Assembly (NCBI GenBank): GCA_027371845.1
Contig: DAHXLD010000017.1
Coordinates: 1-60,201, forward strand
Direction of reading: 5' to 3'
Length of the DNA: 60,201 bases
DNA from: Candidatus Saccharimonadota bacterium
Lineage (GTDB): Bacteria > Patescibacteriota > Saccharimonadia > Saccharimonadales > UBA4665
Part shown: one piece after another, positions 26,486 through 48,160 of the stretch
Layout: each line of letters begins with the position of its first letter
Position numbering within the stretch: the stretch's first letter is position 1
The notes under the pieces: model-generated
Databases searched by the model: none
Told to the model about the DNA's origin: nothing
What the model saw: only the letters and a program-made list of their open reading frames with translations
Position numbers and translations under genes: made by a program

Positions 26486-27736
26486 CTATTCTCTTCTGTC
26501 TACATAATTTCGGCAAAAATCTTCAAAAATAGCGTTTGTCCAACCAAAACCATCTTGCGACGGATAAACCCCTTTAAATGGAGGTTTTTCGGGAGTTACG
26601 ACATTATATTTTTCAATAAAGTTTTTGTGATCAATAAACCAGTTTAGATTATTCTTAAGCCACTTTATAGCAATAGTTCGAGCCTCTTTATGATAACCAT
26701 ATTTTTCTAACCCCCTTACAACAAATAGGTGTAAAGGAGCCCATCCGTTAGGATAGGCCCACTGAGTGGGCATTGATCCTAAGACAAATTGACCAACCGG
26801 CAAGGTATCGGTCGTAGCAAGACCTCCCTTATATTCAAAACGTTTTAAATGTTTAACTAGGTCCTTTGCCATAGAATCGTTAACCATACCGGCCCAAAGA
26901 GGAACATAAGCCGCCAAAGAATAAATCTGTCCCTTTTTGTTTTTTAGGTAGTTATAGTCAAAGTAGAATTTCTTATTTTTATCCCACATTAAATCATTGA
27001 TGGTTGCTTTTCTTAGATTAGCCACGTCTTCCCAACGACCAGCTTCCCGGCCATTTGCTAATAACTTGGCAGCTTTTGAAAAATCCATTTCGTATTTAAA
27101 CAAAAAAGCGTTTAAATCAATCGGCAGGAAATTTAAGGCTCGATGATTAAATCTGGGTGTCATGTCCCATCCACTTTCAGCTTCAGCCAAATCGTGTAAT
27201 AAATTAGCATCGGTATATCTAGATAAGTTTTTATAAACATTCCTAAGATTAGGTTTTGTAGTACCCATCCAAACGTTATGATATTCTTTTTTAGCAACTT
27301 CTATTTTATCCTTTAGCCAAGTTTTATCCATTTTATAGCTGTTATAGATATCGAAAATTAAAGAAGTTAAAAGAGGAGGTTGAGATCGACCCATAAGAAA
27401 GGTTCTTGAAGCGTTAGGAATAATACCAAATCTATTGAATAAATAGATCAGGTTATCTAGTATCCCTAATACCAAATCTTTATGTTCCTCATCTAAGAGA
27501 CCCTGTACGATAAAATAGCTATCCCAATAATACATTTCATTGAAATCGAAACCTAAATTAGAGGTAATTGAAGGAACAATGTAAGGTTTTGGTAAACCGA
27601 GCAGGCTTTCGTCGTCCTTTGGGTGATAACAAGCTAACTTTTTCCAATAATCTTTTATATAGTCCCGAGCAGGCTGGACCTCTTCTTCGGTTAAATTTAT
27701 ATCCGATCGAAAAGAAACTAATTTTTTTAAATTCAT
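26486..27736 (-). CDS. Trehalase-like glycoside hydrolase (GH37)
   Basis: FDFNEMYYWDSYFIVQGLL, ESGWDMTPRF, QWAYPNGWAPLHLFVVRGL, KYNVVTPEKPPFKGVYPSQDGFGWTNAIF; no signal peptide. Confidence 0.9.
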   Translation of the reverse strand: MNLKKLVSFRSDINLTEEEVQPARDYIKDYWKKLACYHPKDDESLLGLPKPYIVPSITSNLGFDFNEMYYWDSYFIVQGLLDEEHKDLVLGILDNLIYLFNRFGIIPNASRTFLMGRSQPPLLTSLIFDIYNSYKMDKTWLKDKIEVAKKEYHNVWMGTTKPNLRNVYKNLSRYTDANLLHDLAEAESGWDMTPRFNHRALNFLPIDLNAFLFKYEMDFSKAAKLLANGREAGRWEDVANLRKATINDLMWDKNKKFYFDYNYLKNKKGQIYSLAAYVPLWAGMVNDSMAKDLVKHLKRFEYKGGLATTDTLPVGQFVLGSMPTQWAYPNGWAPLHLFVVRGLEKYGYHKEARTIAIKWLKNNLNWFIDHKNFIEKYNVVTPEKPPFKGVYPSQDGFGWTNAIFEDFCRNYVDRRE

Positions 27737-27965
27737 TAGTTATATTTAACAAGGTATTTACTAATTAGTCATTAGTTTTTATTAATTAAGTTTAGTTAAT
27801 TCAGATTTAATGACATAATTGTAATAATTAAAGTTTTAAAAAAGTTAAGGTCTTGTCTTTTAAATACCTAGTTTTTCTAAAGAATCCCAATAATAATTTT
27901 AATACTAGATTAGACCAATATTCATTTGGTGTTTGCCGAAATTATTAAAGCTAAATCGATAAGTT

Positions 27966-28000
27966 TTTTTACAAAAATGACCCCAATATTTGAGGTCAAA
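27966..28000 (-). terminator. Rho-independent terminator downstream of the tmRNA
   Basis: On minus strand TGACCTC-AAATATT-GGGGTCA (7 bp stem, plus coordinates 27978-27998) followed by TTTTTGT. Confidence 0.7.
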
Positions 28001-28011
28001 ATTCTATTATT

Positions 28012-28409
28012 TGGTGGAGCTGCCGGTGATTGCAACCGGGTCCGCTAGTTTAATTCATTAAATGTCTACAGGCATAGTTAATTTAAATCCTATATCTAAA
28101 TAAAAATTAACAAAAATTAGACAAGTTTCCTTATATTGGTCTTAGCATTAAAAATAAAGGAAAAATCTTTAATGAGCATCCAAAAGATATAAAGCGCTTA
28201 ATCAAAGTTTGGAGCTTTTAATTAAGCACTGCCTTTAATATACAAAGGCTGGTGCGAAAGGAGCAAATACGTTAGCAAAAGAGCTTTTAATACTTGCGGC
28301 TAAATCGCTGATTCTAGATTTTGCATCTAAAAGTTTTTGCCTATAACGCTGACAAGCGACCTGCAAATTTAATTATTAAAATCCAACGTCGAGCTTTTGA
28401 TTCAGCCCC
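28012..28409 (-). ncRNA. ssrA: Transfer-messenger RNA (tmRNA)
   Basis: Minus strand 5' GGGGCUGA pairs with 3' CAGCUCC-A-CCA as a 7 bp acceptor stem with a G3-U wobble; T-arm CCGGU/UGCAAUC/ACCGG; resume-like UUUUAGAU-GCA at nt 86; in-frame tag ORF ending UAA; promoter and terminator at the correct distances. Confidence 0.9.
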
Positions 28410-28420
28410 ATCAATAAATA

Positions 28421-28449
28421 ATTATACCATAACTAAGTAATGCTTGCAA
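28421..28449 (-). promoter_or_regulatory. tmRNA promoter: TTGCAA, 17 bp spacer, TATAAT
   Basis: Minus strand -35 TTGCAA (28444-28449) and -10 TATAAT (28421-28426), 12 nt before mature tmRNA nt 1. Confidence 0.75.
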
Positions 28450-28472
28450 TTGTGATATTTAGGTTGTATAAT
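28444..28472 (+). promoter_or_regulatory. Promoter of WhiB-like gene: TTGCAA, 17 bp spacer, TATAAT
   Basis: TTGCAA 28444-28449 (palindromic, shared with the tmRNA promoter); TATAAT 28467-28472; ATG at 28481. Confidence 0.75.
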
Positions 28473-28480
28473 ACTTTTTT

Positions 28481-28756
28481 ATGAGATTTAAACCTAGCCA
28501 AAATTTAAGCGACATGGTCTCTATAGAAGATTATGGAGATAAACTTTGTACAGGTATGAATCCAGGTATTTTCTTTCCTCCAAGTGAAGAACAAATACGA
28601 GAAATGGGTGATAACGTGATCGAGTTTCCCGGAATGACTGAAAGAGCCCAGGAGATCTGCGGTCGTTGTATTTGTAGCTGGGTTTGTTTTTTAGCGGCCG
28701 ACTTACGGGGCGCTGAAGAAGGTATCTTTGGTGGGGTAGATTTTAGTCAACTTTAG
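28481..28756 (+). CDS. WhiB-like Fe-S family protein
   Basis: 91 aa; LCTGMNPGIFFPPSEE, CGRCICSWVC (CxxCx5C), ADLRGAEEGIFGGVD (WhiB GI[W/F]GG turn). Confidence 0.85.
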   Translation: MRFKPSQNLSDMVSIEDYGDKLCTGMNPGIFFPPSEEQIREMGDNVIEFPGMTERAQEICGRCICSWVCFLAADLRGAEEGIFGGVDFSQL

Positions 28757-29522
28757 AAAGTAAATTATACAATTTAATCCACGTTTCTAGATCAAGTTCT
28801 TGAGCTCGAGCTTTTAGGTTTATATTTAATAACTTAAAATTAATTAGTAATTCCTCTTTATAGCCTCTTTTAAGATTATTAAAAAGGGTTTTTCTTTTTG
28901 AAGAGAAACCCATTTTAATTAATTTAAATAATCTCTCAGAATTAAAATCATCTAGAGGCAAACTATTTTTTGGTTCTAATATAACAAGGTTGGAGTCTAC
29001 TTTGGGGGCTGGACTAAATGCTTCACGGCCGACAAAAGGCCCCTTAAAAACGTCAAAATAATACTGGGTTATAACGCCTAAAACCGAATAATTCTTTGCC
29101 TTGGCTGAAAGTCTTTCGGCTATTTCTTTTTGAACCAGAAGAATTATTTTGGTTGGTTTGTTCTTTAAATTAGCCAGGATTCGAATAAGATTAGAAGTCA
29201 GATAATAAGGGATGTTAGCAACTATCTTGTAATTTAATGGTAGATTATTAAAGTTGAATTTTAGAATACTTTCATTATGTAATTCTAGGTTGCTAAGTTT
29301 TAAATCTCTAAGCATTTGAAATAGTTTAGGATCAATTTCAACTGCAATAACATGACATTTTTTAATAAGTCTTAAGGTTAAATTACCGGTTCCTGGTCCA
29401 ATTTCTAATACATGATCATCTTTGGATAATTCTGCCAAATCAACGATCTGATCTAAAATGACTTGATCAATTAACCAGTGCTGGCCCAAGCTCTTATTGG
29501 TTTTTATTTTACCAATTTCCAT
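28743..29522 (-). CDS. rsmA: 16S rRNA (adenine1518-N6/adenine1519-N6)-dimethyltransferase
   Basis: KSLGQHWLIDQVILDQIV, VLEIGPGTGNLTL, VANIPYYLTSNLI, FSPAPKVDSNLV. Confidence 0.97.
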   Translation of the reverse strand: MEIGKIKTNKSLGQHWLIDQVILDQIVDLAELSKDDHVLEIGPGTGNLTLRLIKKCHVIAVEIDPKLFQMLRDLKLSNLELHNESILKFNFNNLPLNYKIVANIPYYLTSNLIRILANLKNKPTKIILLVQKEIAERLSAKAKNYSVLGVITQYYFDVFKGPFVGREAFSPAPKVDSNLVILEPKNSLPLDDFNSERLFKLIKMGFSSKRKTLFNNLKRGYKEELLINFKLLNINLKARAQELDLETWIKLYNLLSKVD

Positions 29523-30786
29523 TATTTATCCAATGAATATAGGCATTATACCATCCACCATATCTAGAATTAGCATAAGAATTACACCACTCTAACTGGG
29601 TAATGGGATTAGTTGCCCAATCAGATCCAGCGCTAGACATTTTATAACCTGGGGTTGCTTGACATAATCCGTATCCATTAGGAGTATAGGCGTTATCGGG
29701 AATGGCTGGACAATAATGTTCTCCCTGAGCTTTAGTTGGGCACCACCCAGATTCATGACTAATGATATAGTCAGCGTATTGATAATCAGTAGAAGATATG
29801 CCCGCTAAAGCCATATCCCCTTTTATGCCGCTTAGGCTGGTTCCTTCAACCACTATTTCAGTAACTGGTTGAATAGTTATAATCGTCTGAAGACTAGTAG
29901 TATTGACTACAATCTTATTTTGGGTTTGATCTTCGTAGGTAATGACCTCCTGTCCAGCCGAACCTTGCTGTCTAATAGCACTGGTGCCATAAGCTAAGCT
30001 CGAAGAATAAATTGTCTGGATTGGCATTGGAATAGCTTGGGTAATGGTCGTAATTTTTATTCCCTGTCTGACAATATAGACTACTTGATTCGAAGTAATG
30101 GGAGAGTTCAAGGCGGGCAATACTTTATCTTTTGGAGCTAACTTAATATGCTCCTTTTTTATAAGCTCGGCGACCGTTTTAGCGTGGGTTCTAATTAGGA
30201 TATTTTTACCATACAGGTTGAGGTTGATAGGAGTGGCTGGATTAATGATTATACTTTGACCAATAACTCCGCTTTTTAAAAAGTTGGTTGATGGCGTGGC
30301 CGAAACATAATCTTCTGGGTAGACATTAACCCCCGATTGCTGAACGACTGCTCTTGGAGTTGTGGCAGCTGAATAGGTGAAGACTACCCCGCTGGGCGTA
30401 TCGATCGCAACCGGTTTAGCCCTAAAAATATTTATTCTAAAATCATCCTGGTTTATTTCTGTATTTAAAGCGGGTTCAACAACGTCCCCATGATGTAAAA
30501 TGATCTTAAGTTTTTTCAAAAGTATACCAACAGTTTTATCTTTAGTTGGAACAACTTGTTGCACCCCATCATGAGAAATAATTACTATTTTAGAATTAGA
30601 TATAACTCTTATTGTCCTTGTGTTCTGGATAAAATGATAAAGGACTAAAGTCATTAGACTTAGAGATATTATCGTAATAACCGGGACCTTAACTCCTGGA
30701 TGTTTAATAATATGTTTAAATCTTCTAAACTGGCGTCTTTTAAATCGTACTAGCTTATATAACAATGATCTTTTATTTAGTCTCAT
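29509..30786 (-). CDS. Rpf/YabE-like cell wall protein with DUF348/G5-like and lytic transglycosylase-like domains
   Basis: N-terminal TM, DUF348-like repeats, G5-like segment (EVITYEDQTQNKIVV...), C-terminal YIISHESGWCPTKAQGEHYCP...GYGLCQATPGYKM...WCNSYANSRYGGW; adjacent to rsmA. Confidence 0.85.
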   Translation of the reverse strand: MRLNKRSLLYKLVRFKRRQFRRFKHIIKHPGVKVPVITIISLSLMTLVLYHFIQNTRTIRVISNSKIVIISHDGVQQVVPTKDKTVGILLKKLKIILHHGDVVEPALNTEINQDDFRINIFRAKPVAIDTPSGVVFTYSAATTPRAVVQQSGVNVYPEDYVSATPSTNFLKSGVIGQSIIINPATPINLNLYGKNILIRTHAKTVAELIKKEHIKLAPKDKVLPALNSPITSNQVVYIVRQGIKITTITQAIPMPIQTIYSSSLAYGTSAIRQQGSAGQEVITYEDQTQNKIVVNTTSLQTIITIQPVTEIVVEGTSLSGIKGDMALAGISSTDYQYADYIISHESGWCPTKAQGEHYCPAIPDNAYTPNGYGLCQATPGYKMSSAGSDWATNPITQLEWCNSYANSRYGGWYNAYIHWINNGNW

Positions 30787-46244: not shown

Positions 46245-47405
46245 CTATTTGACAACCCACTTGCTGGTAGGATAGATAGTCTTTAAGTTTACTCGGTCCT
46301 TATATTTCAGGGTTATGTTTTGAACTTCATCCATTAAGCCTTCGTTTAAGGTTTTGGGCTTAAGTCCAAGTTTTAAGAATTTCGAATTATCTACCACTAA
46401 ATCATTTCGGGGGTCTTCTTTTCTTGGATTCTCGACATAGCTAATCTTTGCAGAGGTCTTTTTTGATATTAATTTAGCCAGATCACTTAATTTTCTGGTT
46501 TCGGTGGCTTGATTAAATATCGATGGTCTATCGCCTTTTTTGGGGGGATTATTAATAGCTATATTAATACACTTAACGGTATCTGATATATTTATGAAGG
46601 CTCTAGTTTGGCCACCTTTTCCATAAATTGTTAAGGGATGATTTATGGCAGCTTGCATTAAGAATCGATTTAAAACCGTTCCGTAATCTCCATCATAATC
46701 AAATCTGTTGATTAACTTCTTATCTAGTTTAGTTTCGTCGGTTTGAGTCCCCCAAACAATGCCCTGATGAAGATCGGTAATTCTTAAACTATCGTTTTTG
46801 CAGTAAAAACCAAACATCAACTGATCAAGAGTCTTGGTCATATGATAAACCGATCCTGGATTAGCTGGATGAAGAATCTCTTTTTCTTCTCTAGTTGTTC
46901 CAACTAAGACCTTTACATAACCTTCAGGTATAGGGTTCTTACCGGTCCAGCCGTAGCCGTATACGCCCATTGTACCTAAATGCACAATATGGCAATCTAG
47001 CCTAGTTTCGACAATGGCGTTTAGGATATTATGAGTTGCATTAACATTATTGTCGACGGTATATGATTTCGTTGAAGAATTCTTCATTGAATAAGGAGCT
47101 GAACGTTGTTCGGCAAAATGAACGACGGCCTCTGGTTTAAAGGATTTAAAAAGCTCTTTTAATTCAAAATAATTTTTAGCAATGTCTAGTTTATAAAAAG
47201 AAATCTTGTTTTTAGATATCTTATTCCAAGTTTTTATGCGGGTCTCAATATCTTCTATTGGGGTTAGGGAGTTTGTTCCAAGTTCAATGTCTATTTTCCT
47301 GCGACTAAGATTATCAACAATTAAAATCTTGTGTCCTTTATTTGACAAATGAAGAGCTGTTGGCCAACCGCAAAAACCATCCCCTCCAAAAACTATAATC
47401 TTCAT
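46245..47405 (-). CDS. sqdB: UDP-sulfoquinovose synthase-like SDR (SqdB/SQD1/Agl3 family)
   Basis: GGDGFCGWPTALHLS, VDNLSRRKIDIELGTNSLTPI, VHFAEQRSAPYSM, YTVDNNVNATHNIL, HLGTMGVYG, YHMTKTLDQLMFGFYCK, DLHQGIVWGTQTDET, NRFDYDGDYGTVLNRF, PLTIYGKGGQTRAFI. Confidence 0.93.
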   Translation of the reverse strand: MKIIVFGGDGFCGWPTALHLSNKGHKILIVDNLSRRKIDIELGTNSLTPIEDIETRIKTWNKISKNKISFYKLDIAKNYFELKELFKSFKPEAVVHFAEQRSAPYSMKNSSTKSYTVDNNVNATHNILNAIVETRLDCHIVHLGTMGVYGYGWTGKNPIPEGYVKVLVGTTREEKEILHPANPGSVYHMTKTLDQLMFGFYCKNDSLRITDLHQGIVWGTQTDETKLDKKLINRFDYDGDYGTVLNRFLMQAAINHPLTIYGKGGQTRAFINISDTVKCINIAINNPPKKGDRPSIFNQATETRKLSDLAKLISKKTSAKISYVENPRKEDPRNDLVVDNSKFLKLGLKPKTLNEGLMDEVQNITLKYKDRVNLKTIYPTSKWVVK

Positions 47406-47476
47406 TAATTTTCATTTTAACAAAAAATATGATTTAATTCAGCTAATCTTCACTTTCTTTAAGTTAAAATTTAGAT

Positions 47477-48160
47477 ATGAAAATATTAATAATCGAGGAC
47501 GAAACCAGAATTGCTTTAACCTTAAAAAAAACCTTAGAATTAGAAGATCATCAGGTAAAGATAGCTTTTGATTCAGATAAGGGGCTGGGTTTAGCTAAAG
47601 ATAAAAGTCTTGATTTAATCATTATGGATTTAATGCTTCCAGGAAAATATGACGGGATTAGTCTAACAAAACATCTTCGAAATATAAAAGTTAATACTCC
47701 AATTCTAATGTTAACAGCTTTAGATGATGTTAAAAATAAGGTTAAAGGATTAAGCTCGGGAGCCGATGATTATTTGCCAAAACCTTTTTCTTTAAGTGAA
47801 TTACAGGCTCGAATTAAAGCGTTATCCAAACGTCCCAAACAAATAGTAGGACCAATCTTAAAAATCGATGATTTAACTCTAGATACCTCTAGTAACATTG
47901 TTAAGAGAAACGGACAGGTCATAAAATTATCTTCAAAAGAATATAGGCTATTAAGTTATTTAATGTTTAATAAGAATCAGATAATTTCAAAAGATAAAAT
48001 TATTAGTCATTTATGGAATGATGAAAGCTTTGTGGTCAAAAATACTATTGAGGTTTATATCGGATACTTAAGGAAAAAAATAGACAAAGCATTTCCATTA
48101 AAACCCGAATTAATTCATACTGTAAGAGGTTTTGGATATAAAATAGGGCTTAAAAAGTAA
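47477..48160 (+). CDS. OmpR/PhoB-type response regulator
   Basis: Receiver domain (EDE...IIMDLMLPG...PFSLSELQARI) plus winged helix DNA-binding domain (TVRGFGYKIG). Confidence 0.96.
   Translation: MKILIIEDETRIALTLKKTLELEDHQVKIAFDSDKGLGLAKDKSLDLIIMDLMLPGKYDGISLTKHLRNIKVNTPILMLTALDDVKNKVKGLSSGADDYLPKPFSLSELQARIKALSKRPKQIVGPILKIDDLTLDTSSNIVKRNGQVIKLSSKEYRLLSYLMFNKNQIISKDKIISHLWNDESFVVKNTIEVYIGYLRKKIDKAFPLKPELIHTVRGFGYKIGLKK

Follow-up and report, generated by a model that had tools for sequence, protein, structure and literature searches.

Results

Genes and promoter elements at the ssrA-wbl locus

We analysed a 60,201-nt stretch of DNA from a Candidatus Saccharimonadota bacterium (assembly GCA_027371845.1, contig DAHXLD010000017.1), hereafter the window; the genome to which it belongs is called G000. 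Near its middle the tmRNA gene, ssrA, and a gene for a small WhiB-like (Wbl) protein point away from each other, with the following features between and beside them.

28012..28409, minus strand: ssrA (tmRNA); Rfam RF00023, 68 bits, full length over model positions 1-374, CCA end
28421..28426, minus strand: TATAAT, predicted −10 element of the ssrA promoter; sequence reading and promoter scan; identical in the three genomes of the genus
28444..28449, both directions: TTGCAA, predicted −35 element; sequence reading and promoter scan; likewise kept in those three genomes
28467..28472, plus strand: TATAAT, predicted −10 element of the wbl promoter; sequence reading and promoter scan; 8 nt before the ATG
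28481..28756, plus strand: wbl, 91-aa WhiB-like protein; Pfam PF02467, alignment, matches to WhiB3 and WhiB1 in the PDB; putatively leaderless mRNA
28743..29522, minus strand: rsmA (ksgA), 16S rRNA dimethyladenosine transferase; Pfam PF00398

The identity of ssrA is supported by an RF00023 score well above the gathering score of 47, by GGGGCTGA at the 5' end and by the CCA at the 3' end; ARAGORN does not detect this tmRNA in the window. A candidate frame for the tmRNA tag, as we read it, lies within ssrA at 28235-28366 (minus strand) and ends in ...FAPFAPAFVY. The candidate tag ends in AFSY in a second genome of the genus (G001) and in ...FAPAFA in a third (G002), and those of the remaining relatives that were read finish in Ala; a tag lacking Ala at its end, if such it is, would be unusual. 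The rsmA gene runs in the direction of ssrA and is convergent with wbl, overlapping its 3' end by 14 bp. In the family, rsmA often adjoins ssrA on its upstream side, and the order rsmA-ssrA is found in relatives.

Two predicted promoters on one palindromic −35 element

Both direct reading and the promoter scan identified the palindromic TTGCAA as a candidate −35 element for either strand. On the plus strand it is followed by a 17-bp spacer and the TATAAT at 28467-28472, and on the minus strand by a 17-bp spacer and the TATAAT at 28426-28421. The initial annotation had described exactly this, a TTGCAA with a TATAAT 17 bp off on either side, one toward ssrA and one toward the Wbl gene, and it was correct to the base. 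Each promoter matches the consensus at 10 of 12 bases, and the two are the top promoter matches within positions 27000-30000. Whichever way it is read, TTGCAA agrees with TTGACA at only four of six positions, the palindrome retaining TTG and the final A in both directions. The ssrA promoter also has an extended −10 (TGG at 28429-28427, ahead of TATAAT), and for this reason is probably the stronger and busier of the two. Its −10 box ends 11 nt from the 5' end of the tmRNA as placed by Rfam. The distance between the two −10 boxes is 40 bp, and that between the predicted start sites about 65-67 bp. By sequence, these are opposed promoters with overlapping core elements, that is, overlapping divergent sigma-70 promoters, and we regard them as two credible sigma-70-type promoters that use a single −35.

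Such an arrangement is far above chance expectation and is not a random string. With a looser pattern (ATTATA-N16-18-TTGNNN-N16-18-TATAAT), shuffling of the window gave 0.01 expected occurrences against the one found, which is readable on both strands; this pattern is present once in the 530-kb assembly. The composite with TTGCAA was absent from 12 simulated sequences of 530 kb. Since every gene needs a promoter, the question that counts is whether the sharing is special.

Apparently leaderless genes in the same genome

The short distance between the wbl −10 box and the ATG was compared with a sample of 377 kb of G000, comprising 347 genes. In this sample, TATAAT-like boxes peak 6-8 nt before the ATG (27, 20 and 15 genes; background about 7), as do exact TATAAT boxes (8, 9 and 7 genes; background about 1). 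About 62 of the 347 genes have a TATAAT-like box at this distance, and TTG is enriched ahead of these boxes at a spacer of exactly 17 bp (8/62, compared with 0-2 at other spacers). In the same sample, complete TTGCAA showed no special enrichment at 16-18 bp ahead of TATAAT. The pattern points to a class of genes that appear to be leaderless and to have promoters of the sigma-70 type. Because of the −10 peak at 6-8 nt and the TTG enrichment at 17 bp, the wbl promoter fits this functional class, which is strong circumstantial evidence that it is real.

Conservation of the ssrA promoter and drift of its mirror image

The comparison within the genus covers three genomes, the window's own, G001 and G002, some of them incomplete; the closest named record beyond these is distant, and a scan of genome contigs for close species by way of rsmA relatives found none. 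The ssrA arrangement TTGCAA-17-TATAAT is kept in all three. The mirror −10 on the wbl side drifts, reading TATAAT in the window, CATAAT in G001 and TAAGAT in G002. Conservation of the hexamer and of both −10 boxes had been put forward as a check on the proposed architecture; within these three genomes it was borne out for TTGCAA and the ssrA −10, and the mirror −10 was not conserved as a strong box. In G002, two tandem wbl genes lie at the equivalent position, with rsmA on one side and ssrA on the other. In G001, rsmA and ssrA are 125 bp apart with no wbl between them. As rsmA of G001 is 72% identical to that of the window and rsmA of G002 only 51%, the simplest history is that G001 has lost wbl. 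On the side that formerly led to wbl, the G001 spacer is conserved at 12 of 17 positions, compared with 9 of 17 on the ssrA side. This counts against the reading that we prefer below: the half may matter for ssrA, in an UP-like role, or the loss of wbl may be recent.

These observations bear on a reading in which the ssrA promoter alone is of consequence: the TATAAT on the wbl side would be fortuitous, or decaying, or part of an A/T-rich upstream element boosting ssrA, with wbl weakly expressed or disappearing. The invariance of the ssrA core elements beside a drifting wbl −10 would fit this reading, as would the A/T-rich half that G001 retains after losing wbl and the departures of the Wbl protein from its family (below). 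Against it, the mirror box of the window is perfect, at 17 bp from TTGCAA and 8 nt from the ATG, as in the leaderless class, and the presence of wbl genes at the same place in G002 means that wbl is not a recent accident. We therefore consider this reading unlikely.

Of about 60 ssrA neighbourhoods read across the order, no further one has a divergent wbl at ssrA; the usual upstream neighbour is rsmA or a MarR-like gene (names from sequence reading). In a second genus (g8; G227 and G270) a wbl gene does lie near ssrA, in a different arrangement: there it follows the ssrA 3' end at a distance of about 1.5 kb and so is on the opposite side of the gene. We also considered TTGCAA as a general −35 element of ssrA in the order and rejected it, as among these neighbourhoods it was found only in the three genomes of the genus and in G042.

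A divergent member of the Wbl family

The wbl product matches the Pfam Whib family (PF02467) with an E value of 1e-6 and 29.6 bits, above the cut-off of 23.6, and the solved WhiB3 and WhiB1 structures match it weakly. In the alignment, C23, C60, C63 and C69 correspond to the four conserved family cysteines, with the C-x2-C-x5-C spacing. In these respects it resembles known Wbl proteins (PMC6282962, PMC10245118). It differs from them in its turn, in its C-terminus, which has neither a basic tail nor an AT-hook, and in its occurrence outside Actinobacteria. The G[V/I]WGG motif of the turn has been called universal in Wbl proteins (PMC6282962); here the turn is GIFGG, without the Trp, and in the second G002 copy it is GVFGG. 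By its profile, then, the protein is WhiB-like, divergent in the turn, and not a standard Wbl.

A 2018 review described Wbl proteins as exclusive to Actinobacteria (PMC6282962); against that statement, Pfam Whib is present in 115 of 295 genomes of the order, often in several copies. One such further wbl is found in G000 (C16, 19079-19369, minus strand; L069) and in G001 (C34, 23506-23793, minus strand; L068), head-to-head with a conserved neighbour less than 60 bp away. Its close-set divergent −10 boxes are 41 bp apart at L069 and about 29 bp apart at L068, with no TTGCAA.

Known Wbl proteins bind region 4 of sigma A, the part that reads the −35, and WhiB7 binds A/T-rich DNA adjacent to that element in its own promoter (PMC10245118, PMC6282962). 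By analogy, the Wbl of the window, which retains the four cysteines, could bind sigma region 4 at its own shared −35 and so bias the direction of the polymerase. With GIFGG in place of G[V/I]WGG and with no basic tail or AT-hook, we find such feedback highly improbable. Its fuller form, in which Wbl docked on sigma region 4 sets polymerase direction and tmRNA supply follows the state of an iron-sulphur cluster, is more improbable still.

A shared TTGCAA recurs between unrelated genes

The full composite, defined as both TATAAT boxes and a shared TTGCAA with spacers of 16-18, was searched for across the order with the reversed pattern as control. Among 247 genomes of the order, 7 carry it, at 8 sites in total, and within one genus 10 of 80 genomes have such a site; the control gave 0 in both searches. 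The sites that were read lie between divergent genes, for example secE, yebC, a membrane pyrophosphatase, a tRNA and short leaderless genes (names from sequence reading), and the flanking genes are unrelated to ssrA or wbl. In all, some fifteen sites besides that of the window have two genes, several of them apparently leaderless, that diverge from one predicted palindromic −35. An orthologous divergent leaderless pair in G200 and G235 (L105 and L107) shares TTTGCAAA, with an extended −10 of the TGTGNTATAAT type on both sides, and offers a cleaner case than the window for testing a shared −35.

Sharing of the −35 falls within a continuous range of compact divergent promoters. Among the 36 divergent pairs of G000 with gaps of 20-400 bp, start-to-start distances are 123 bp or less in 24, and further pairs of this genome have −10 boxes 39, 41, 45 and 48 bp apart. 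Among the matches listed, divergent pairs of extended −10 boxes show a flat distribution of spacings from 28 to 55 bp, with no peak at 38-42. A preferred 40-bp spacing of divergent −10 boxes was rejected: of the 75 sites listed, 4 fall at 38-42 bp, against about 13 expected from a uniform spread. Elsewhere in the window, at 47405-47477, another divergent pair carries TAAAAT boxes in mirror orientation, separated by 45 bp and each lying 6-8 nt from the ATG of its gene.

Discussion

Our literature search found nothing direct on Wbl proteins in Saccharibacteria or on divergent promoters that share a −35. The nearest known systems differ from the present locus in the element that is shared. Bacterial bidirectional promoters have so far been defined, by Warman et al., around a shared −10, with divergent start sites 7-25 bp apart (PMC12825309, PMC10268837). 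As in those E. coli promoters, one short sequence here would give two opposite transcripts, with the polymerase in a single orientation at once; by that definition the ssrA/wbl pair is not a bidirectional promoter, having its −10 boxes 40 bp apart, its −35 shared and its predicted starts far wider. At Pr/Pc of pLS20, overlapping opposed sigma-A promoters, one of which drives a regulator gene, bind polymerase exclusively, as we infer for ssrA/wbl, and the polymerase itself has been described as part of the switch (PMC4207663). There, however, the −10 of one promoter is proposed to double as the −35 of its partner, and the switch also involves a regulator protein and looping of the DNA (PMC4207663), whereas at ssrA/wbl the shared element is the −35 and no operator or regulator is known.

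The initial annotation had inferred mutually exclusive transcription, and from it that ribosome rescue and a redox-sensing type of regulator could be coupled reciprocally; in such a switch tmRNA and Wbl would be alternatives, tying rescue to the sensing of redox state or stress. The first part holds up in that, on steric grounds, simultaneous occupancy by two polymerases is very likely impossible. The second part does not follow. Any coupling of ssrA and wbl would depend on promoter occupancy, and five E. coli bidirectional promoters showed no measurable competition at basal activity, competition emerging only once one side was strengthened or activated (PMC12825309); exclusive occupancy thus does not imply coupling. 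In favour of a switch are the perfect, optimally spaced −10 box on each side of one −35 and the regulator gene on one side, as at Pr/Pc. Set against this, the mirror −10 is weak in G002, G001 has lost wbl and kept the ssrA promoter, the arrangement is not seen in the ssrA neighbourhoods read from other genera, and unrelated gene pairs use the same architecture. Taken together, these points make a reciprocal switch very unlikely.

Our preferred reading, which we consider probable, is that the locus represents a recurrent compact promoter architecture, a pair of housekeeping promoters facing away from a common palindromic −35, in which interference would at most be one-sided. The older and constrained promoter would drive ssrA. 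On the other side, the opposite face of TTGCAA and the mirror TATAAT would give a leaderless mRNA for the small Wbl. Region 4 of sigma could read TTGCAA from either side; a single holoenzyme would be bound at a time, in one orientation, and after each escape both directions would be open again. Absent further factors, the net result to be expected is that the busier ssrA promoter damps wbl, modestly at most and in one direction only. The layout itself most likely arose as genome compaction and leaderless genes pushed divergent promoters into each other.

A rescue/redox switch is thus unsupported by conservation, and the locus is better seen as a clean example of a compact promoter geometry, a shared palindromic −35, that recurs in a lineage of reduced genomes. 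If their start sites are confirmed, these sites would be natural templates on which to test whether competition between polymerase orientations alters expression.
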